Shown here in pieces: positions 1 to 9,453 of a stretch of DNA of 35,076 nt (within the stretch, counting starts at the first letter, position 1; every line of letters starts with the position of its first letter). The notes under the pieces were generated by a model, which saw only the letters and a list, made by a program, of their open reading frames with translations, searched no databases and was not told where the DNA came from. This stretch comes from Proteobacteria bacterium CG1_02_64_396 (GTDB lineage Bacteria > Pseudomonadota > MNWR01 > CG1-02-64-396), in contig MNWR01000089.1 in NCBI GenBank assembly GCA_001872725.1, positions 1 through 35,076 of the forward strand, read 5' to 3'. A program made the position numbers and the translations under genes.

Positions 1-239
1 TTCTCATCAGCATGGACGGACGGGGCCGGGCGCTGGACAACGTCTTCATCGAACGTTTGTGGCGCACGGTGAAGTACGAAGAGATCTACCTGTACGACCA
101 TGCCGATGGGGTGGCGCTGCACCAGGGGCTCGACCGCTACTTCCGGTTTTACAACACCGAGCGCCCCCACAGTGCCCTCGGCGGCAAGACCCCAGAACAG
201 GTCCATCAAACCCACGGCGGAACCACCCACCGCCACTAA
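1..239 (+). CDS. IS3-family transposase, C-terminal fragment (rve integrase core)
   Basis: About 79 residues at the end of a DDE transposase, open at the left edge of the window. The stretch DNVFIERLWRTVKYEE carries the glutamate that is the third member of the DDE triad in this family. It is followed by YFRFYNTERPHSALGGKTPE, the conserved C-terminal block of IS3-type orfB products. The frame ends with TAA at 237-239. The enzyme catalyses cutting and joining of the IS ends during transposition. In IS3 elements orfB is normally expressed by frameshifting from orfA. Whether the upstream part is intact cannot be seen. It is the only mobile-element gene in the window. Confidence 0.88.
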   Translation, partial: LISMDGRGRALDNVFIERLWRTVKYEEIYLYDHADGVALHQGLDRYFRFYNTERPHSALGGKTPEQVHQTHGGTTHRH

Positions 240-285
240 CCGTTTACAAATTTTCGCCCCCAAACTGTCCAAGGAGTGGGGTCCA
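1..285 (+). mobile_element. Right (3') end of an IS3-family insertion sequence, cut by the window edge
   Basis: The segment holds the C-terminal part of an IS3-type transposase followed by about 45 bases of non-coding end. The likely terminus is the CA at 284-285. Read inward on the minus strand it gives TGGACCCCACTCCTTGGACA, with the 5'-TG...CA-3' ends usual for IS3 elements. The lipoprotein reading frame to the right runs straight into this point, which supports the boundary. The left end and the matching inverted repeat lie outside the window, so neither the exact edge nor any target duplication can be confirmed. Confidence 0.7.
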
Positions 286-456
286 CCCCACCATGATGGC
301 CACGATCTGTTCTTGGCTCAGGCTGTTCGGCGAAACCGCAATATGGGTTGAATCGAAGGAGCTATTTCGATAATTAGCCGTATCGTACGATGAACTCGCA
401 CACCCATATAACATCATAATGCCTAAAAAAATAGCGGCTCCCAAGAATCTATTCAT
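244..456 (-). pseudogene. Small lipoprotein gene truncated by the IS insertion
   Basis: The frame starts with an ATG at 454-456 and encodes a lipoprotein-type signal peptide: MNRF, a hydrophobic run (LGAAIFLGIMML), and a lipobox LYGC with Cys19 as the expected lipidated residue. A short hydrophilic region (about residues 20-58) follows, ending SLSQEQIVAIMVG. The last 13 or so codons (WTPLLGQFGGENL) are read from the end of the IS element, so the native C-terminus is missing. A GAGGA motif directly abuts the ATG, which is unusually close; TTG at codon 5 would be better spaced. Base composition is more AT-rich than in neighbouring genes, which hints at acquired DNA. The family is not recognised. 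The product would be a short, probably non-functional, lipoprotein. Confidence 0.6.
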
Positions 457-677
457 TCCTCATTACCCCCGAGTTCCACGTTTATCCAGAGACATCCTTC
501 GATCTTACAAGGGCACCTCTAAAACGGCTTTCCCAGCGGTTTTTAAGGTGGGAATCGAAACCCTAGGCACCATGAAGCGGCGTGGTTTTCGACTTCCTTT
601 CGCTTCAGTCGCTTACGTTTCTGCGTTTGCTGGCCCATCCCTGAGCGGCGCAGAAGCGCCATTAAATCAGCGCTTCC
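457..677. other. Gene-free stretch with repeat-like and hairpin sequences
   Basis: No convincing gene lies here; the open frames lack family resemblance. The stretch contains a hairpin flanked by A and T runs at 521-543, a small hairpin at 647-660 (GGCGC, loop AGAA, GCGCC), and one of two related 24-25 base segments (521-544). The second copy (664-688) extends into the end of folD. The layout suggests a remnant of a small mobile or repetitive element next to the IS insertion. Confidence 0.5.
521..544. terminator. Terminator-like hairpin, possibly bidirectional, in the repeat region
   Basis: AAAACGGCT (521-529), loop TTCCC (530-534) and AGCGGTTTT (535-543) form a 9-bp stem with one mismatch. 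It is flanked by an A run on the left and a T run (540-544) on the right. On the minus strand it lies downstream of folD and could end that transcript. The stem is only moderately GC-rich, so activity is uncertain. The same segment resembles 664-688 and may be part of a repeat. Confidence 0.35.
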
Positions 678-688
678 CTAACGGTTTT
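521..688. repeat. Pair of imperfect direct repeats (521-544 and 664-688)
   Basis: The core CTTTCCCAGCGGTTTT in the left copy corresponds to GCTTCCCTAACGGTTTT in the right copy, same orientation, about 140 bases apart. Both copies also begin with an A run. The right copy contains the folD stop codon (678-680). The two may be remnants of one element or a member of a dispersed repeat family; the window has no third copy to decide this. Confidence 0.35.
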
Positions 689-1586
689 CAGAAATGCCCT
701 TGGGGTGTTTACCCCCGGCAGAACCTGCTCCCCTTTGCCCATGCAACGTCTCGGCGGCGTAGAGGGTGTTGACCAGCAGCATGGCGCGGGTCATGGGGCC
801 GACCCCGCCGGGAACCGGGGTGATCCACGAGGCCCGTTTTGCGGCCTCTTCAAAATCGACATCGCCGACCAGCTTGCCATCGGGCAGCCGGTTCATCCCC
901 ACGTCGACGACAATCGCCCCCGGTTTGATCCACGCCCCCTTCACCAAACCAGGTTTGCCGGCAGCGGCGACCACCAAATCGGCGTCGCGCACATGGGCCT
1001 CAAGGTTGCGGGTGAAGCGATGGGTGACGGTGACGGTGCAACCGGCCAGCAGCAGTTCCATCGCCATGGGGCGGCCGACGATGTTCGAGGCCCCCACCAC
1101 CACCGCATCGAGCCCCTTCAAAGCCGCCCCGGTGGTTTCGAGCAGCTTCATGATCCCGAAGGGGGTGCAGGGGCGCAGCATCGGTTGGCGCACTGCCAGA
1201 CGGCCCATGTTGAAGGCGTGGAAACCATCCACATCTTTGTCGGGGTGGATCGCCTCGATGACCGGTTTGGCATCGAGGTGGCTGGGCAGGGGGAGCTGCA
1301 CCAGGATGCCGTCCACATCTTCACGCTCGTTGAGCTCCTCGACCAGGGCGAGCAGCTCCTCTTGGGTGGTGTCGGCGGGCAGGTCGAAGCCGAAGGAGCG
1401 GATGCCGGTCTCTTGGCAATCTTTACGCTTGCTGGCCACATAAATCGACGAGGCGGGATCCTCCCCCACCAGAACGACTGCAAGGCCGGGCGCCCGGTTG
1501 TGGCTTTTGATACGGGTCTCAACACTGGCGCGGATCTCTTGACGAATCTGGGTTGCCAGGGCTTTTCCGTCGATCAATTGACTCAT
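678..1586 (-). CDS. folD: Bifunctional methylenetetrahydrofolate dehydrogenase / methenyltetrahydrofolate cyclohydrolase
   Basis: FolD interconverts 5,10-methylene-, 5,10-methenyl- and 10-formyl-tetrahydrofolate in the cytoplasm using NADP, feeding purine, formyl-Met and methyl-group synthesis. The 302-residue protein shows the family blocks in order: YVASKRK (49-55, catalytic Lys53), VQLPLP (96-101), DKDVDG (116-121), PCTPFG (139-144), the nucleotide-binding [10 protein letters not shown] (164-173), DVGMN (228-232) and PGGVGPMT (259-266). The ATG at 1584-1586 is chosen because AGAAGG lies eight bases upstream; the longer frame upstream lacks family sequence. The protein carries an unusual tail of about 20 residues ([20 protein letters not shown]), and its stop lies inside a repeat-like segment. 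It is 76 bases downstream of the SDR gene and may be co-transcribed with it. Confidence 0.95.
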
Positions 1587-1662
1587 GGGTACAACCTTCT
1601 GGGGGACTGGTGAACGAGGGGGCAAGGATACACGAGGGGGGGGTGAAAAACCTACGGGGGCA

Positions 1663-2373
1663 CTACCAGGCAATCGGGGTGCGGTCGCGAAAAAAGCCCC
1701 CCGAGGGGCCGTTTTCGGGCAGGGTCGCCAGCCACACCACCGTGTCGGCCCCTTGCGCCACCGAGCGCGGCGCCCCCTTGCCCCCCATACGGGTCGCCAC
1801 CCAACCGGGGCACACCGCGTTGACCTTGAGATCCCCCTGCCCCCGTACCTCGCCGGCCAGCTTAACCGTCAGGGCATTGAGGGCCGCCTTGCTCAGGGCG
1901 TAGGGAGCGGTGCCGGGCAACCCGGCGTTGAGGGAACCGATCCCCGACGAGACGTTGACCACCCGACCAAAGCCACGGGCGATCATGCCGGGGACAAACG
2001 CGCAGCAGAGCCAGAAAGGGCCATAAAAATTCACCCTCATCGCCTCTTCCAGCATGGGGGTGGTCAGGTCGAGCAGCCCCGCTTCGGGGTAGATTCCGGC
2101 GTTGTTGACCAACCCCTCGACGTGGATTCCCACCCGATGCAGCCGGGCGGCGCAGTCCTGCACCGAGGTCTCATCGCCGACATCGAGCGGCTCGACCTGC
2201 ACCGTCAGTCCTTTGCGGGCCAGATCGTGGGCGGCGTGAATGCCCGCCTCATGGTCGCGCGCGCCCAGAATTACCTTGTGGCCAAGGTCGGCAAGCTGGC
2301 GGCAGACCTCAAGGCCGATGCCACGGTTGCCACCGCTGACCAGAATCGTGCGAGGGGTCGGTTTTCGGGTCAT
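1663..2373 (-). CDS. Short-chain dehydrogenase/reductase (SDR) of unknown substrate
   Basis: A 236-residue classical SDR, an NAD(P)-dependent oxidoreductase. Visible motifs are the cofactor-binding SGGNRGIG (13-20; Ser in place of the usual Thr), NNAG (90-93), the catalytic serine in NVSSGIG (140-146) and YALSK (Tyr158, Lys162). The segment [12 protein letters not shown] (188-199) after the active site resembles carbonyl-reductase-like SDRs. The substrate cannot be predicted. The start ATG (2371-2373) overlaps the mobB stop as ATGA, which indicates translational coupling with mobB. Its link to molybdenum cofactor synthesis is by position only. Confidence 0.88.
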
Positions 2374-2855
2374 GGAAGGCGTTCCTGCAACCAGGCGGCG
2401 ACCGCCGCAGGGGCATTGATGTCGAGGTGCCGCCAGGGGGCATCCGAGGGGGGCAGGTCGCAGGCGAGCGCCACCACATGGATCAGATCGCCGGGATTCC
2501 AAGGGTGGGCTGCTCGCAGCACCGCCAGCTTGGGAAAGGGGGAAGACTTGAACCCTTCGGCCAGCACCAGATCGGCGGGGGGCAGCAGGGGAAGGAGCGC
2601 TTCGAGCGGCTGGGGCGCGGCGGCAGGCTGGGCCAGGAAGGTGGCGTGGGGGGTGGCGAGGAGGGTGACGGCAGCCCCGGCCCGGCGCATGCGGAAGGTA
2701 TCCTTGCCGGGGGTGTCCCACTCCACCGGGTGGTGGGTCTGTTTCAGCGTCGCCACCTTGATCCCTTGGTTGCTCAGGATGGCGACGACCTTCTCCAGTA
2801 GGGTGGTCTTGCCGCTGCCCGATGGGCCCACGAAGCAGACGACCGGCGGGTTCAT
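2370..2855 (-). CDS. mobB: Molybdopterin-guanine dinucleotide biosynthesis adaptor protein MobB
   Basis: MobB is a GTP-binding P-loop protein that assists MobA in attaching GMP to molybdopterin in the bis-MGD branch of cofactor synthesis. The Walker A motif GPSGSGKTT lies near the N-terminus. [19 protein letters not shown] and the AEGFK block ([15 protein letters not shown]) are typical of the family. I chose the ATG at 2853-2855 because it overlaps the moaC stop codon as ATGA, giving 161 residues. An ATG four codons upstream is possible. The 3' end overlaps the SDR start in the same way, so moaC, mobB and the SDR gene form a coupled unit. Confidence 0.9.
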
Positions 2856-3328
2856 CCCCGCACCCAATCGCCGCTCTTGCCACCCCTTTTTTCGAGCAGC
2901 TGAATCGGCCCGATGGTCATCCCTTTGTCGATCCCTTTAAGCATGTCGTACAGGGTCAGGCAGGCGACACCCGCGCCCGTAAGCGCCTCCATCTCGACCC
3001 CGGTGGGGCCGGTGCAGGCGACCAACACCCGAACCTCGATGGCCCCCTCCTCCTGCAAAACCTCGAACTCGGCGCTGACCTTGCGCACCGGCAGGGGGTG
3101 GCACAGGGGGATGAGATCCGAGGTCTTCTTCACCGCCTGAATCGCGGCGACCCGCGCCACGGCGATCACATCCCCCTTGGGGGTATCACCCGCCAGCAGC
3201 GCCGCCATGACCTGAGGGCCGATCTCGATCCGCCCGAGCGCCAACGCCTCGCGCCGGGTCTCGGCCTTACCGCCGACGTCGACCATGTGGGCTTGGCCTT
3301 GATCGTCAAGGTGGGTGAGTTGGGACAT
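2852..3328 (-). CDS. moaC: Cyclic pyranopterin monophosphate synthase MoaC
   Basis: MoaC converts 3',8-cyclo-7,8-dihydro-GTP (the product of MoaA) to cyclic pyranopterin monophosphate, the first stable intermediate of molybdenum cofactor synthesis, in the cytoplasm. The 158-residue protein has the expected [18 protein letters not shown] (73-80), [11 protein letters not shown] and [12 protein letters not shown] segments. Asp128 and Lys131 match the catalytic pair known for the family. The ATG at 3326-3328 has GAGG upstream at good spacing. A further-upstream start would add non-family sequence. It is separated from fxsA upstream by a large palindrome, and it is coupled to mobB downstream. Confidence 0.95.
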
Positions 3329-3353
3329 GGGGGCCTCGGGGAAAGAACAAATC

Positions 3354-3434
3354 ATCGCGGCGAGGACGCCGCTCCCACAAAACCTAGTGCTTCAACGGAG
3401 CCCGGCATGGTGGGAGCGGCGTCCTCGCCGCGAT
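3354..3434. repeat. REP-like palindrome with perfect 25-bp arms
   Basis: The arms at 3354-3378 and 3410-3434 are exact reverse complements of each other, separated by 31 bases. The right arm begins GTGGGAGCGGCGTCC and ends GCCGCGAT. This resembles the repetitive extragenic palindromes common in proteobacterial intergenic spaces. It lies in the 118-base space between fxsA and moaC, both on the minus strand. It could limit read-through or stabilise the upstream mRNA. No RAYT-type transposase gene is in the window. Confidence 0.8.
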
Positions 3435-3446
3435 TATCTAAACGAT

Positions 3447-3833
3447 TTACCCAAACGGATCTTGATCGATCACCTCAAACGGCATCACCCGCCGCTTGAG
3501 GGTCTGGAAAATCTTGTCGCGCGCCCAGGGGGTGAGCAGGGTGAAGCCGACCGCATCGGTGAAAAATCCGGGGGTGAGCAGCAGGGCGCCCGCCACCAGC
3601 AACACCGCCCCCTCGACCAGGGCGCGGGCGGGGGGGCGGCCCGAGGCCAGATCGTGCTGGAGACGGGCGATCACCCCCAAACCCTCGCGCCGCACATGCC
3701 AGGCGCCGATCACCGCAGTGAGCAAAACAATCAGCAACGTCGGCCACAAACCGATCCAGCCCCCCACCTGAATGAAGAGGCCGATCTCGATCAGCGGCAC
3801 AGCGATGAAGAGGACCAGCAGAATCCGAAACAT
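3447..3833 (-). CDS. fxsA: FxsA-family membrane protein
   Basis: A 128-residue inner-membrane protein of the FxsA family, named for suppression of F-exclusion of phage T7 in E. coli; its molecular role is not established. The N-terminus is two hydrophobic helices (FRILLVLFIAVPLIEIGLF and LWPTLLIVLLTAVIGAW), followed by HVRREG, and then a third hydrophobic part containing the family signature LLLTPGFFTDAVG. The ATG at 3831-3833 has GAGG six bases upstream, while the longer open frame upstream is low-complexity and not family-like. It is probably the first gene of the minus-strand group that continues through moaC. Confidence 0.88.
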   Translation of the reverse strand: MFRILLVLFIAVPLIEIGLFIQVGGWIGLWPTLLIVLLTAVIGAWHVRREGLGVIARLQHDLASGRPPARALVEGAVLLVAGALLLTPGFFTDAVGFTLLTPWARDKIFQTLKRRVMPFEVIDQDPFG

Positions 3834-4033
3834 TTTTTTGCCTCTACGAATATTCCTGGGAACCAACCCCGGAGGTCGCCTACCAAGGTGGCCAAGACCG
3901 GGGCGGCATATCCCCCCCTTTGCCCCCCGGTCTTCCTCCTTCCGGTTTGATCCTCTAATTCGCCGCCGCCCAGCGGCGTTTTTTTTTGCCCACGGCCGCT
4001 GCATGATTGAGCCCCAACCTACGGAGGAACCCA
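3834..4033 (+). promoter_or_regulatory. Divergent intergenic region with a structured leader upstream of the CopD-like gene
   Basis: This 200-base space separates fxsA (minus) from the CopD-like gene (plus). On the plus strand it contains a hairpin with a perfect 10-bp stem (arms 3894-3903 and 3925-3934), then a terminator-type hairpin with nine T residues (3964-3987), then GGAGG at 4023-4027. That order, a stem, a terminator and then the ribosome binding site, resembles an attenuator or riboswitch leader. It could instead be a small RNA ending at the terminator. No known riboswitch class was recognised, and no clear promoter was found. Confidence 0.35.
3964..3987 (+). terminator. Intrinsic terminator upstream of the CopD-like gene
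   Basis: CGCCGC (3964-3969), loop CCA, GCGGCG (3973-3978), followed by nine T residues (3979-3987). It points in the plus direction but has no plus-strand gene before it, so it ends either a leader or small RNA, or antisense transcription from the fxsA side. Confidence 0.65.
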
Positions 4034-4474
4034 ATGCTCACCCTACTCACCACCGCTCACCTGTTGGCCGCCATCTTCTGGATCGGCGGCATGATGTTTG
4101 TGCTGACGATGCTCATTCCCAGCCTACCCCGACTCACTGCCCCGCCCCCGCCGCAATTGATGCCGACGGTGTTGATCCGCTTCCTCAACGCGGTGGCGGT
4201 CGCCGCCTTTGTGCTGATCGCGACCGGCCCCTGGCTGACCATCGATATGCCCATGGGCGCCATTTACCTGAAGCTGACCCTGGCGCTGGTCATGATCGTC
4301 GTCTATGCCTACTTGCGGCAGCGCTACCTCGAAACCCTTGAAGCCTTGGCGCTACGCCCCGCCGGATCGCCCCCCACCGAAGAGCAAGCCATCGCCCTGG
4401 CTGGGGTGCGCAAGCTGGCGACGATCAACCTGAGTCTGAGCATCGTCATCGTGGGATTGACGACGTTGGGGTGA
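4034..4474 (+). CDS. Small CopD-like integral membrane protein
   Basis: A 146-residue protein with about four predicted membrane helices. The first contains HLLAAIFWIGGMMFVLTML, a histidine-plus-WIGG pattern as in CopD-type membrane proteins. Later helices are NAVAVAAFVLIATGPWL, LKLTLALVMIVVYAYL and INLSLSIVIVGLTTLG. CopD proteins are associated with copper handling, but this is a short single-domain relative and copper binding is not shown. The start ATG at 4034 is well supported by GGAGG at 4023-4027. It is the only non-IS gene on the plus strand, standing alone between divergent fxsA and convergent hisC, and behind a terminator-containing leader. Confidence 0.7.
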   Translation: MLTLLTTAHLLAAIFWIGGMMFVLTMLIPSLPRLTAPPPPQLMPTVLIRFLNAVAVAAFVLIATGPWLTIDMPMGAIYLKLTLALVMIVVYAYLRQRYLETLEALALRPAGSPPTEEQAIALAGVRKLATINLSLSIVIVGLTTLG

Positions 4475-4534
4475 TGGCAAAGTGGCCGCCCGAAGGTGGA
4501 TCAGCGCAAGCACATCCACCCCCCCCAACAAAAC
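4475..4534. other. Short convergent spacer with a 7-bp hairpin
   Basis: The spacer between the convergent CopD-like and hisC genes contains GGTGGAT (4495-4501) and ATCCACC (4514-4520), which form a perfect 7-bp stem with a 12-base loop. Neither side has a T run, so it is only a weak candidate for a bidirectional transcription end. Confidence 0.3.
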
Positions 4535-5593
4535 CTACCCCACCACCTCGCCCAGCATCTGCACGAAGGCCGCCATCTCATCGTCGGAGCCGATGGTCAC
4601 CCGCAGATGATCGACAATGCGCTCGTTGCCAAAGCGGCGCACCAGCACCCCCCTGGCTTTGAGCCCCTCCAGCAGATCCCTCCCGGCAAAACCGGGGTGG
4701 CGGATCAAGATGAAATTGGCGCTGGAGGGGACCACCTCGAAGCCGAGCTTTTTGACCTCATCCACCGTCCACTGCCGGGTTTGGATCACCTTGTCGCGGC
4801 AGACGCGGAAGTAATCCTCGTCCTCGATGGCGGCGACCCCCGCCGCCAGGGCAAGCCGGTCGATGGGGTATGAATTGAACGCATTCTTGGCCCGCTCCAG
4901 CCCCTCGATGAGTTCGGGTTGTCCCAGGGCAAAGCCGAGTCGCATTCCAGCCAGCGAACGGGATTTGGAATAGGTCTGCACCACCAGCAGGTTGGGGTAG
5001 CGCCCCACCAATCCCGCCGCCGTCTGCCCCCCGAAGTCGATGTAGGCCTCATCCACAATCACCACCCGCAGCGGTTGGCTTTGCAGCAGCGCCTCAATCG
5101 CCTCCAAACCCAGCAGCCGCCCGGTCTGGGCGTTGGGATTGGGGACGATCACCCCGCCGCAGGGGTGGACGTAATCCTCGACCCGAATCTGCAACCCCTC
5201 ATCGAGCGGGATCTGCTCGAAGGCGATCTCGAAAAAACCGCACCACGCCTCGTAAAAGCCGTAGGTCACGTCGGGGAAGCGGATCGGAGCCCCTTGTTTA
5301 AAAAACGCATAAAAAGCCAGCGCCAGCACCTCGTCCGAGCCGTTGCCGACAAAGACGTTGGCCGCCTCAAGCCCGTAATAGCGGGCCAGGGTGTGGCACA
5401 AATCGCGGGCGGTCGGATCGGGATACAGGCGCAGGTCGCCCCCCACCGCCCCCCGCACCGCCTCGATGACCTTGGGGGAGGGGGGGTAGGGGCTTTCGTT
5501 GGTGTTGAGCTTGATGTAGCGCTTGTCCCGGGGCTGCTCGCCGGGGACGTAGGGATCCAGGTCGCGGACCACCTGACTCCAGAACTTGCTCAT
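4535..5593 (-). CDS. hisC: HisC-type aminotransferase (histidinol-phosphate aminotransferase family)
   Basis: A 352-residue class I/II PLP enzyme of the HisC family, which converts imidazole acetol phosphate and glutamate to histidinol phosphate. Motifs are LNTNESPYPPSP (29-40), GNGSDEVL (83-90), DEAYIDFGG (181-189), the PLP lysine in TYSKSRSLAGMRLGF (Lys210, Arg218) and HLRVTIGS near the C-terminus. The usual NPN(A/N)PTG loop reads NPNAQTG (152-158), with Gln in place of Pro. The ATG at 5591-5593 lies seven bases after the mtnA stop, so the two genes are probably co-transcribed. That pairing allows another role, as the final transaminase of methionine salvage, because related aminotransferases act on 2-oxo-4-methylthiobutanoate. 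Family confident; substrate open. Confidence 0.85.
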   Translation of the reverse strand: MSKFWSQVVRDLDPYVPGEQPRDKRYIKLNTNESPYPPSPKVIEAVRGAVGGDLRLYPDPTARDLCHTLARYYGLEAANVFVGNGSDEVLALAFYAFFKQGAPIRFPDVTYGFYEAWCGFFEIAFEQIPLDEGLQIRVEDYVHPCGGVIVPNPNAQTGRLLGLEAIEALLQSQPLRVVIVDEAYIDFGGQTAAGLVGRYPNLLVVQTYSKSRSLAGMRLGFALGQPELIEGLERAKNAFNSYPIDRLALAAGVAAIEDEDYFRVCRDKVIQTRQWTVDEVKKLGFEVVPSSANFILIRHPGFAGRDLLEGLKARGVLVRRFGNERIVDHLRVTIGSDDEMAAFVQMLGEVVG

Positions 5594-5600
5594 TTTGGGT

Positions 5601-6605
5601 TCACTCTTCGGCAAACAGAGCACGGATCCCCGCCTCGTTCACCGGGCTGACCACCCCTTGCTCGGTAATCAGGCCGGTGATGAGTGCGGCGGGGGTAACG
5701 TCGAAGGCGGGGTTGAAGACCCCCACCCCTTCTGGGGCGGTGGGCAACCCGCGCAGCTGCGTAACCTCTTTGGGATCGCGCTCCTCGATGGGGATCCCCT
5801 CCCCGGTCGGGGTGGTTAAGTCGATGGTCGACAGCGGCGCCGCCACATAGAAGGGGATGCCGAAATGTTTGGCGGCGATTGCCACTTGCAAGGTGCCGAT
5901 TTTGTTGGCGGCGTCGCCGTTGGCGGCGACCCGGTCGGCCCCTACCACCACCGCATGAATCCGTCCGGTTTTCATGGCGTGGGCCGCCATGTTGTCGCAG
6001 ATCAGGGTGGTCGGAATGTCGTCGGCCATCAGCTCCCAGGCGGTCAGCCGCGCCCCTTGCAAATAGGGGCGGGTTTCGTCGGCATACACGGTGACCTTGG
6101 CCCCCGCTTCGACCGCCGCCCGGATCACCCCGAGCGCCGTGCCGTATCCGGCGGTAGCCAGGGCACCGGCGTTGCAGTGGGTCAAAATCCCCCCCTGGCG
6201 CGGCATCAAGGGGCCACCGTTGGCGCCGATGGCCTTGTTGATCGCCACATCCTCATCCAAAACCGCTTGGGCCTCGACGAAGAGGGCGGCGGCGTCGGCC
6301 CCGGCAGCCCGCACCCGCGTCATCCGCTCCAAAGCCCAACGCAGGTTAACGGCGGTGGGACGGGCCGCGTTGAGGTCGGCGCTCGCCTGTTGCCAAGCGG
6401 CATCGTCCAAATCCTTGCGGGCCTCGAAGGCCATACCGAAGGCGGCGGTCACCCCGATGGCGGGGGCGCCCCGGACCACCATCAGCTTGATGGCGTCATG
6501 GGCGGTCGCGGCATCGGTCACGTCAAACCATTGTTCCTCGAAGGGGAGCAACCGCTGATCGATCAGGCGCAGCGCGTTGGGGGTGACGATAAAGGTTGGG
6601 GTCAT
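5601..6605 (-). CDS. mtnA: Methylthioribose-1-phosphate isomerase
   Basis: MtnA isomerises 5-methylthioribose-1-phosphate to methylthioribulose-1-phosphate in the methionine salvage pathway. The 334-residue protein shows [14 protein letters not shown] (45-58), NLRWALERM (87-95), [17 protein letters not shown] (141-157) with the catalytic Cys144, [15 protein letters not shown] (174-188), and [17 protein letters not shown] (222-238) with catalytic Asp224. All match the family, a relative of the eIF2B regulatory subunits. The ATG at 6603-6605 follows AAGGG at seven bases. It lies 26 bases downstream of a small membrane protein gene and directly upstream of the aminotransferase gene. No other salvage gene is in the window. 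Confidence 0.93.
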
Positions 6606-6631
6606 GGATCGGCCCTTTGGGTGTTCGTGAT

Positions 6632-6976
6632 TTAGGTGGGTTCGGCGGGGGGGGCTTCGGTAGGCGGCGTAACCGCAGGCTTGGCCGCTCCCTTGTGCAA
6701 ACGGGCGTGTTGTTGCATCGCCACGAAAAAGCCGGGGTAGCTGATGAGCAGGTAGACCAGGAAGTAGATCCAGTAATTGATCGACTCCTGGGCGTGGGCC
6801 GCACCGGCAATCGCCTTCTCGGCAAAGTCGGCGAAGACCAGGATCAGGCCGAAGCCCGCCAGCCAAATCAACAGACCGACGAGGCGGCGACGGATGGCCA
6901 GCGGGTTGACCCAGGCGAAGTTGCCGATCAACAGATAGAGGGCGGTGCCCAAAATGGCCCAGGAGGCAGCGGACAT
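6632..6976 (-). CDS. Small three-helix membrane protein of unknown function
   Basis: A 114-residue protein that I do not recognise. It has three hydrophobic segments: [20 protein letters not shown] (about 5-24), [21 protein letters not shown] (about 30-50), and [20 protein letters not shown] (about 66-85). A basic stretch and a proline/alanine-rich tail ([15 protein letters not shown]) follow. The start ATG (6974-6976) is chosen because the hydrophobic region begins there; the ribosome binding site is weak (GAGAG). It lies between gspN (97 bases upstream) and mtnA (26 bases downstream), so it may be the distal part of the T2SS transcript. Confidence 0.65.
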
Positions 6977-7073
6977 GGGACTCTCTCGGGGGGTGTCGTG
7001 ATGGAAATGGGGCGGGGAGTGTAACCGATTCGACAGGTGATTGAGCGGTTCCGTTGCAAAACCTACAGCCTGA

Positions 7074-7814
7074 TTACAGCGGCACCACCCCACTCCATTG
7101 AATCGGAAAGCGTCCCTGGGGATCGGGGTTGCCGATCATGCGCAGGAAGGGGGCCAGCTGGGCCCGTTGCGCTGAGGCCGGGGCGTAGAGGCCGGAGAGG
7201 GTGGCGTTGATCGCGCCGTCGGGGGTGGCGCGCAGGGCGATCTTCAGGTCGAGCCCCGCCCCGATCAGGGTGCCGCTCCATTTGCCGCCATCCCCCGCCC
7301 CCTTGAAGGTCAGGGTGTCGACGGGTAGCGCCAGCCCCATGTAACGCAGGGTGGCGCCGCTTAAGGTGGCGGTCAGGTCGCTGCGTAGCGGATTGGCGGT
7401 TTGGATGGCGCCGCTCAGGTTGAGCAGCCCCTCGCCGTAGGCGGGTAGCCAGCGTTGCAGATGCAGGGCGCCGACCACCTCTTGCAAGGATCCGTTGCTG
7501 TCGGATTGGCCGGTTAGCCGGTCGTCGCCCGCCCGAAGCTCAAACTCGGCGGCTGGGTCGAAGGTGAGCAGCCGCCCCCAAGCAGGGGAGAGGGTGGCGA
7601 GGTCGATGTTGAGGGGGTCGGGATTGCCGGGCAGGCGTAAAGTCAAGGCGTGCACGTTCAGGCTCAAGCCCTCGCGCTCGATGGAACCGACCTGAGCCAC
7701 CGCCGGGATCTTCTCGATCTGAGGACGAAGCCAGGGATCGATGGGCCAAAGCACCACGGTGAACAGGGCGGTGAGGAGCAGCCATACCCCCCCCATAATC
7801 CAGGCGCGTTTCAT
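7074..7814 (-). CDS. gspN: Type II secretion system protein N
   Basis: GspN is an inner-membrane protein with a periplasmic domain, present in a subset of T2SS operons and often dispensable. The 246-residue protein has one N-terminal membrane helix (WIMGGVWLLLTALFTVVLW, about 5-23), then a periplasmic beta-rich region with GspN-like features: PAVAQVGSIEREGLS, ALTLRLPG, SGAIQTANPL and FLRMIGNPDPQGRFPIQWSG near the C-terminus. The ATG at 7812-7814 overlaps the gspM stop as ATGA. It is the last gsp gene of the operon. Confidence 0.85.
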   Translation of the reverse strand: MKRAWIMGGVWLLLTALFTVVLWPIDPWLRPQIEKIPAVAQVGSIEREGLSLNVHALTLRLPGNPDPLNIDLATLSPAWGRLLTFDPAAEFELRAGDDRLTGQSDSNGSLQEVVGALHLQRWLPAYGEGLLNLSGAIQTANPLRSDLTATLSGATLRYMGLALPVDTLTFKGAGDGGKWSGTLIGAGLDLKIALRATPDGAINATLSGLYAPASAQRAQLAPFLRMIGNPDPQGRFPIQWSGVVPL

Positions 7815-8317
7815 CCCCCCACCTCCAGCCGCAGATCACACATCCCCGGTTCGCGGTAGCGCTCCTTGATCGACATCCGCTCGATCCGGTCGCCGCTCCC
7901 CCCCGACTCGATGGCAGCCATGAAGCGGATCGCATCTTTGAAGGCGATCTGCTCAACCTGCACCGACACCCGCTCGCTGTCGCCGATCTTGATCGGCTTG
8001 ATCCGACTGATGCGGTCGCCAATGCCGACGTTGCGCCCCGCCGCCTCGACCCGCGACAAGGGCGACCCGCTCTGGGCGGCGCCCGCCCCCTGCGGATTAC
8101 GGGCTTGCAGCGCCCGGTACTCGGCGACCAACCCCGCCATTTTGCCCTGCGCCTCTTGCGCCGCCTGCAACGCCCGTTCGGCCCGATGGTGACGCTCGGC
8201 CAAAGGGGAGACGATCCCCTCCGAGATCAGCACCAGCAACAAAAGGGCGGCGCCGACCCCCAGCACCCAACGCTCACGGGGCTCGCGCTCCAGCCACCAC
8301 GCCATCATTTGTTCCAT
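7811..8317 (-). CDS. gspM: Type II secretion system protein M
   Basis: GspM is a bitopic inner-membrane component of the T2SS assembly platform and partners GspL. The 168-residue protein has a short cytoplasmic N-terminus (MEQMMAWWLEREPRERW), a membrane helix (VLGVGAALLLLVLISEGIV, about 18-36), a helical region rich in Ala, Glu and Arg (about 40-70), and a C-terminal ferredoxin-like periplasmic part. I place the start at the ATG 8315-8317, which overlaps the gspL stop by one base (TGATG). A GTG one codon upstream (8318-8320) would give a GTGA overlap and cannot be excluded. Confidence 0.85.
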   Translation of the reverse strand: MEQMMAWWLEREPRERWVLGVGAALLLLVLISEGIVSPLAERHHRAERALQAAQEAQGKMAGLVAEYRALQARNPQGAGAAQSGSPLSRVEAAGRNVGIGDRISRIKPIKIGDSERVSVQVEQIAFKDAIRFMAAIESGGSGDRIERMSIKERYREPGMCDLRLEVGG

Positions 8318-9453
8318 CACGCCCCCCCCTCGGCCCGCAGCACCCTTAAGGTCACCCGGACTTTATCTTCTTGGGAGCGGGCATCGGCAATGGTCGCCTC
8401 GCCCAGGGCTGCGAGTTTGGCCCGCAACTGTTCGGCGGCGTCGAAGCTGGCCACCTGACCGCGCAGATTGATCGCCCCGTCGGTCACCTCGATCTCCTCA
8501 ACCTGCAAATCGAATCCGGCAATCGCCGACTGCATCTTGGCCAGCAGAGGGACCACCCCCGCCTCGGCCCGTCCAACCGAGCGGCGCAGGGCGTCGACCT
8601 TTTGTTTCATCTGATCGAGGGGGACCACCACGCGGGCACCGGGGAAGAGCTCTTGGTACTGCGCCCCCAACCCCGCTTGAATCGCGGCGGCCCGGTCGAG
8701 CTGTTGGGAGGCGCCGACCCAACTCAGAACCAGCGCCAGCACCATCACCCCGGCCAACATGGCGGCGGCCACCCGCCCCTGGCGCCACAGGGTGCGTCCC
8801 AGCGACGAGGGGGCATAGGGGCCCAACAGCAGATTTTTGCTCCGTGCCTGCATGGCTGCGGTGAGCACCCGCTCCCAGGGCCAATCCTCCTCGTTGAGCA
8901 CCGTGACCTCCAGCGCCGGGATCCAACCCTCGGGCAGATCGATCCCATCGAGGTGCAGGGCGTCGACCACCTCACCCCCCTCGATGTGGACCCAGCGGTT
9001 GCCCGCGACCCAGTGGTACCACCCCTGCGCTTGTTTGCCCAACAGTTGGGCCAAACCGTGTTCGGGCAACACCAGCCGCTGCGGCTCCCAACCGGCCTCA
9101 CGCAGGATCGACAGCCGCTCTTGCAGCAGCGCTTCGGGTAGCGCCGCCGCCAACACCGGCACCGGTTTGCCGTGCCCCGCAGGCAAAGATGCGACGAACC
9201 AACCCCGCATCTCGCCGGGCCAGAGATCCTCGACCGCGCCGGTCGCCAGCACCTGCAAGCGGGCGTCGCGCACCGGCAAGGTCATGGCCCGAACCGGCAA
9301 GGGATCGCACCACACCAGGGTGCGCAGCCGGGGGGGGGGCTCGGGCAATGCAGCAACGCTCTCCAGCCGCATCTGTCCCTCGGGGGTGATGAGGTAGAGC
9401 GCCTGGCCATCGAAGGCCAGCGCCGCCTGTTGGGTGCGGACCGCCGTCACCAC
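8317..9453 (-). CDS. gspL: Type II secretion system protein L
   Basis: GspL links the cytoplasmic ATPase GspE to the inner-membrane platform. About the first 220 residues form the cytoplasmic actin-like domain (ALAFDGQALYLITPEGQ, LPVRAMTLPVRDARLQ, LPEHGLAQLLGKQ). A membrane helix follows (VAAAMLAGVMVLALVLSWVG), then a coiled-coil-like stretch and a periplasmic ferredoxin-like domain ending VTLRVLRAEGGA. The start is one of two adjacent GTG codons. The GTG at 9451-9453 is seven bases from AGGAGG; the GTG at 9448-9450 overlaps the gspK stop as GTGA. Both give about 377-378 residues. The longer open frame upstream would overlap gspK and looks artefactual. Confidence 0.85.
   Translation of the reverse strand: MVTAVRTQQAALAFDGQALYLITPEGQMRLESVAALPEPPPRLRTLVWCDPLPVRAMTLPVRDARLQVLATGAVEDLWPGEMRGWFVASLPAGHGKPVPVLAAALPEALLQERLSILREAGWEPQRLVLPEHGLAQLLGKQAQGWYHWVAGNRWVHIEGGEVVDALHLDGIDLPEGWIPALEVTVLNEEDWPWERVLTAAMQARSKNLLLGPYAPSSLGRTLWRQGRVAAAMLAGVMVLALVLSWVGASQQLDRAAAIQAGLGAQYQELFPGARVVVPLDQMKQKVDALRRSVGRAEAGVVPLLAKMQSAIAGFDLQVEEIEVTDGAINLRGQVASFDAAEQLRAKLAALGEATIADARSQEDKVRVTLRVLRAEGGA

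Follow-up and report, generated by a model that had tools for sequence, protein, structure and literature searches.

Our results suggest, tentatively and with the balance close to even, that the 200-bp gap at 3834-4033, between the divergent gene fxsA (minus strand) and a small CopD-like gene (plus strand), encodes a short RNA that ends at an intrinsic terminator and exposes an anti-Shine-Dalgarno seed, and that is made either alone or as the product of a leaky leader of the CopD-like gene. The plus strand at 3834-3987 would be transcribed into an RNA of about 110-130 nt, starting at about 3855-3875 and ending in the T-tract at 3979-3987, in which two hairpins are followed by a C/U-rich anti-Shine-Dalgarno seed (UUCCUCCUUCC), left exposed, and by a terminator whose tail has nine U. 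This order of parts is that of Hfq-type small RNAs that act by base pairing. Such a seed would pair with the Shine-Dalgarno sequences of target mRNAs and thereby block their translation. With a weak terminator lying just 46 bases ahead of the start codon, part of the transcripts may extend into the CopD-like gene, and the RNA would then be leader-derived, like GraL in the greA leader. The earlier note on this DNA had offered attenuation or a small RNA; the small-RNA branch is the better supported of the two, and attenuation comes second. From Rfam and the literature on small RNAs and leaders, we know of no description of such an RNA.

The features of the locus, in coordinates of the window (the whole stretch of 35,076 nucleotides that was analysed), are:

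3447 to 3833, minus strand: fxsA, the divergent neighbour (PF04186, E 1.9e-36)
3834 to 4033, plus strand: intergenic region between fxsA and the CopD-like gene, from sequence and gene calls
3847 to 3855, plus strand: CGAATATTC, with the palindromic core GAATATTC, a possible promoter or operator element by presumed role, also present in an element on contig C101
3874 to 3893, plus strand: hairpin H1, GGTCGCCT-ACCA-AGGTGGCC, 8 bp including G-U pairs, from minimum free energy (MFE) folds
3888 to 3950, plus strand: small GTG frame of 20 codons (MAKTGAAYPPLCPPVFLLPV), from sequence, with GGAGG 12 nt upstream; doubtful
3894 to 3934, plus strand: hairpin H2, a perfect 10-bp stem (AAGACCGGGG/CCCCGGTCTT) and a 4-bp inner stem, from folds
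3933 to 3960, plus strand: C/U-rich stretch TTCCTCCTTCCGGTTTGATCCTCTAATT, from sequence and folds
3961 to 3987, plus strand: intrinsic terminator with a 6-bp GC stem, a 6-nt loop and nine T, from sequence, terminator scan and fold
4023 to 4029, plus strand: Shine-Dalgarno sequence GGAGGAA of the CopD-like gene, from sequence
4034 to 4474, plus strand: CopD-like membrane protein gene, 146 aa, from profile matches below cut-off

The 146-aa product matches the NCBIfam profile copper_CopD at E 7.4e-4 (19.2 bits, cut-off 195) and the Pfam profile CopD at 19.6 bits (cut-off 32.1); with both scores below the curated cut-offs, the protein can be called no more precisely than "CopD-like". The earlier note had described a perfect 10-bp stem, a GC hairpin followed by nine T residues and a ribosome binding site 35 bases later, and this arrangement was recovered base for base: AAGACCGGGG at 3894-3903 pairs fully with CCCCGGTCTT at 3925-3934, the hairpin CGCCGC-CGCCCA-GCGGCG occupies 3961-3978 with nine T at 3979-3987, and GGAGG stands at 4023-4027, 35 bases past the last T, with the ATG at 4034, 46 bases from that T. 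Hairpin H1 and the UUCCUCC at 3933-3939 do not figure in the earlier note. Its further statement that no plus-strand gene precedes the terminator holds for the neighbourhood, and needs amending for the window as a whole, in which a single such gene is called at 3-239, 3.7 kb away, by a simple codon-usage script rather than a published gene finder. Further upstream, between moaC and fxsA (3350-3440), the window carries an inverted repeat, CGCGGCGAGGACGCCGCTCCCAC / GTGGGAGCGGCGTCCTCGCCGCG, that is REP-like by its look.

Taken alone, the 10-bp stem is only mildly unusual: no perfect Watson-Crick stem in 3834-3990 is longer, and 10 of 400 dinucleotide shuffles contain one of at least that length. 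The complete fold is beyond chance: the plus strand gave z-scores of -4.55 (200 nt), -4.67 (157 nt) and -5.03 (118 nt) against shuffles, none of which (0 of 200 at each of the three lengths) was as stable. This bears on whether the structure could belong instead to the minus strand, as the 5' leader of fxsA, which starts at 3833 and on whose strand the stems are inverted repeats too. The minus-strand fold, however, hardly beats its shuffles (z -1.11; 28 of 200 as stable) and its hairpin is without a T-tract, so that we regard an fxsA leader as very improbable. Within the plus-strand structure, the best fold at H1 differs in a shorter transcript starting at 3870. The GTG frame at 3888-3950, which is proline-rich, overlaps H2 and is also the tail of a longer frame, is doubtful as a translated frame, the Shine-Dalgarno spacing of 12 being long.

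Of 15 terminator-like sites listed in 1-9000 (shuffle mean 7.4), the hairpin with its T-tract holds the top rank. For comparison, the 1.42 million bases sampled on both strands contain 44 runs of at least eight T, and a perfect GC-rich hairpin directly precedes 17 of them. This terminator is orphan and one-sided, with no same-strand gene just upstream of it, and its stem is weak (-11.2 kcal/mol, as compared with -19.1 to -25.3 kcal/mol at four other folded places). It could be read as an insulator that keeps stray transcription of the plus strand, which would run antisense through fxsA and moaC, out of the CopD-like gene, the folded RNA upstream being functionless and the CopD-like gene having its own promoter near the T-tract (e.g., CATGAT at 4003-4008). 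The 3.7 kb upstream that hold no called plus-strand gene are in keeping with such a role, as is the fact that the scan picks out the terminator. Nevertheless, an insulator leaves the strong fold (z about -5) and the exposed C/U-rich stretch unexplained, and inspection by eye found no convincing promoter downstream of 3988; we consider it unlikely. As for promoters in general, a consensus scan found no sigma-70-like site in 1-9000 (1.5 expected in shuffles), which counts against the small-RNA reading.

The predicted small RNA would pair with its targets through the C/U-rich stretch between H2 and the terminator. UUCCUCC at 3933-3939 is complementary to the Shine-Dalgarno sequence GGAGGAA; its first two bases close the H2 stem, and CCUCC at 3935-3939 has a mean unpaired probability of 0.98 in a 125-nt model fold. 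The genome encodes Hfq (97.2 bits, cut-off 27), which may bind the RNA. Three marks of Hfq-type small RNAs thus occur together here: an orphan terminator with a long U-tract, an Hfq gene and, by prediction, a single-stranded seed.

An enrichment of CCUCC before comparable terminators of the genome is not established. Among one-sided terminators that are unanchored (no same-strand gene within 120 bases), CCUCC was counted before 5 of 14 in a first sample (matched or exceeded in 3 of 500 shuffles) and before 4 of 13 in a second (6 of 500), both samples leaning to hits, as 12 of the 20 contigs of the first and many stretches of the second had been named by earlier matches. When the five known-hit stretches were removed from the second sample, which biases the count the other way, 1 of 10 was left against 0.73 expected (278 of 500 shuffles as high). 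The anchored and two-sided terminators of both samples displayed no clear CCUCC excess. Genome-wide, the pattern CCTCC-gap-T7 has 39 matches vs. 33 for its reverse, and CTCCC-gap-T7 has 20 vs. 26. Of the 39, seven near-duplicate or tandem rows were dropped, 23 were tested for a hairpin and seven of these passed (one, on C50, was later left out for its A-tract), and from the nine other rows seven hairpin-like ones were picked by eye. Among 13 places with CCTCC and a hairpin, CCUCC is unpaired at more than 0.9 in three, namely the window, C101 and C98b, the last of which sits 29 bases after a same-strand gene.

Since the terminator lies within a structured leader, 46 bases before a start codon, a cis-acting attenuator has to be weighed: the CopD-like gene would be transcribed from a start upstream of 3870, with a ligand, a protein or the movement of ribosomes on the small GTG frame acting as the signal that chooses between termination at 3987 and readthrough. 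GGGCGGC at 3901-3907 and the terminator arm GCCGCCC could form a 7-bp all-GC pairing as a possible antiterminator, and these seven pairs of upstream complementarity count in its favour. So does the leader position, defined by a same-strand gene within 150 bases on the downstream side and, upstream, either an opposite-strand gene or none, which is rare: only five of the 157 terminators outside genes in the two samples (675,024 bases, including the window, and 746,260 bases) have it, one of the five following a tRNA-like end. The weak stem (-11.2 kcal/mol) points the same way; in the available part of the survey of Naville and Gautheret (PMC2965389), 5' terminators average -16.5 and 3' ones -20.2. 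The folds, in contrast, would speak against a simple on/off attenuator, although not decisively. The terminator stem, in either of two registers, is kept in the best fold of all 15 model transcripts (starts at 3840-3885, ends at 3980-3990), and in the three transcripts where it was disallowed the cost is 11-13 kcal/mol, with no strong rival pairing. The 7-pair complement is equalled in 23 of 500 mononucleotide shuffles, and H2 would have to open for it to form. In addition, the Shine-Dalgarno sequence of the CopD-like gene is paired with the C/U-rich stretch in the full 200-nt fold, so readthrough by itself would leave translation blocked. No Rfam leader family matches, and none of 31 other loci with distant CopD-like relatives has an orphan terminator within 300 bases of the gene on its upstream side. 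Attenuation keeps its place because the terminator is weak, and we view it as possible but doubtful.

The suggestion of an unrecognised ligand-sensing element, also made in the earlier note, found no support. No Rfam family reaches its gathering score anywhere in the window; with hits admitted up to E 10, the region 3780-4060 gave ten rows, all far below gathering, and no tRNA or tmRNA was found. A class-wide genome search returned only this genome, in whose 98.48% complete assembly a search for 16S rRNA gave no match at E up to 0.001, probably because of an assembly gap. DNA searches for leader homologues in 60 genomes including this one recovered, besides the leader itself, only short arm-like matches, and a plasmid collection gave one chance-level match. 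A model of the element (R1, made from one sequence entered twice), searched in 398 phylum genomes including this one, found itself and two matches at E of about 9e-4 per genome; the E-values are rough, and about 0.4 matches are expected over 398 genomes. Both were taken as chance matches, and tblastn showed nothing convincingly similar to fxsA or the CopD-like gene at either locus, the nearest thing being a CopD fragment of 14 residues (E 0.005) some 930 bases away at one of them (L153).

The CopD-like gene itself has relatives in 83 of the 398 phylum genomes, this one included, all of them distant. The 31 other loci compared here came from the phylum search (29) and from a contig scan (two), with 53 further phylum genomes left out; most carried 1.5 kb on each side, some being clipped by contig ends. 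Their products match at 26-42% over at least 62 residues, apart from two at 59-64% over 22 residues only. Over the 300 bases before the gene, none of the 31 shows an orphan terminator; at one (L053) a terminator stands 53 bases before the CopD-like gene, but it follows an upstream gene. Likewise, no fxsA match at E below 0.05 was found near these 31 loci (best 0.084).

Within the same genome, the arrangement of the window is uncommon in the sampled sequence. The five one-sided terminators in leader position are that of the window, one in the leader of yhbY on contig C101, two others and the one after a tRNA-like end. The yhbY leader provides the best sibling of the window element:

Contig C101, about 4030 to 4150 (L068 1450-1570; L115 4038-4150): orphan RNA-like element in the yhbY leader, with TTGACA, CGAATATTC, exposed CCUCC, a GC terminator and nine T

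This element has an opposite gene upstream and yhbY (YhbY by PF01985) 87-93 bases downstream, and its CCUCC is unpaired at 0.93. CGAATATTC has five copies in the genome, three of them inside long ORFs (909, 848 and 282 aa), and the only two outside long ORFs, intergenic by the script gene calls, are those of the window and C101, in the same orientation in both and 132 and 101 bases, respectively, before the T-tract. In C101 the motif comes just after TTGACA, whereas the window has no placeable hexamer of that kind. The shared motif is a post hoc observation and serves as a lead. It is decidedly unlikely, in our estimate, that the two are members of an as yet unnamed group of anti-Shine-Dalgarno small RNAs encoded in leaders and controlled by one shared regulator binding GAATATTC, with early termination releasing the RNA and leakage feeding the downstream gene.

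The terminator search needs six pairs and misses shorter stems such as the one on C108 at 3596-3622 (L150 1479-1505), an orphan terminator in leader position that lies 138 bases downstream of an opposite gene and 57 bases upstream of a same-strand one. Two further terminators lie elsewhere. On C82 at 6630-6710 (L070 1500-1585), one with TCCTCCTTCC is found about 300 bases after polA, and 785 bases separate it from the next called gene; Spot 42 of E. coli is a small RNA that lies after polA. On C48 at 47828-47901 (L069 1500-1574), another with CTCCTCCTT is found between a Fur-family gene and a converging ORF, methionine aminopeptidase-like by eye, and could be a small RNA after fur. CCUCC terminators are thus not tied to leaders, as one of these two is 3' of polA and the other 3' of a Fur-family gene.

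Among known systems, the small RNA family RF00519 (suhB/MmgR), also called alpha-r8, resembles the look-alike loci in alignments, with a C/U-rich linker containing CUCC, a GC terminator and a U-tract. Membership was rejected, the score being 18.1 bits where gathering requires 41, and at a loose threshold the family has 16 sub-threshold places in the genome and also matches in 13 of 14 control genomes, which makes the likeness generic and nearly worthless. Four look-alike loci of the genome also stayed below gathering for every listed Rfam family. In the accessible text of PMC2573895, suhB is tagged OT, read here as orphan terminator. The alpha-r14 RNAs of rhizobia (NfeR1/SmelA075) likewise are structured and expose a CCUCC-type anti-Shine-Dalgarno seed, and NfeR1 silences ntrB at its translation start, as far as the excerpts of PMC10746234 and PMC3927594 go. 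In alpha-r14, however, those excerpts place an unpaired CCUCCUCCC in each of three hairpins, whereas the window element has one CCUCC between H2 and the terminator, and it was rejected as a member.

With regard to the position of the terminator, the closest parallel is GraL of the greA leader of E. coli, where, according to the portion of PMC6829880 at hand, short RNAs arise at an intrinsic terminator within the 5' UTR, roughly one transcript in three continues into the gene, and the RNA is reported to act both in trans and in cis. The window element would share with it a terminator in a leader and possible readthrough. GraL differs, on the same portion, in its length of 37-59 nt and its mapped promoters, as compared with the 110-130 nt predicted here from sequence alone, and in its downstream gene. 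The 5' terminators surveyed by Naville and Gautheret are likewise Rho-independent, located in 5' UTRs and weaker on average, as the present one is weak; in contrast to the attenuators in the available part of that survey (PMC2965389), the window element showed no recurrence before relatives of its gene, and no alternative fold was found.

If the small RNA is real, it would be a candidate in a bacterial class represented by a single genome in this analysis, and another case, beside GraL, of a leader terminator yielding an RNA that may act in trans. The prediction is testable, but the element, in a bacterium without close relatives at hand, would be of an ordinary kind.
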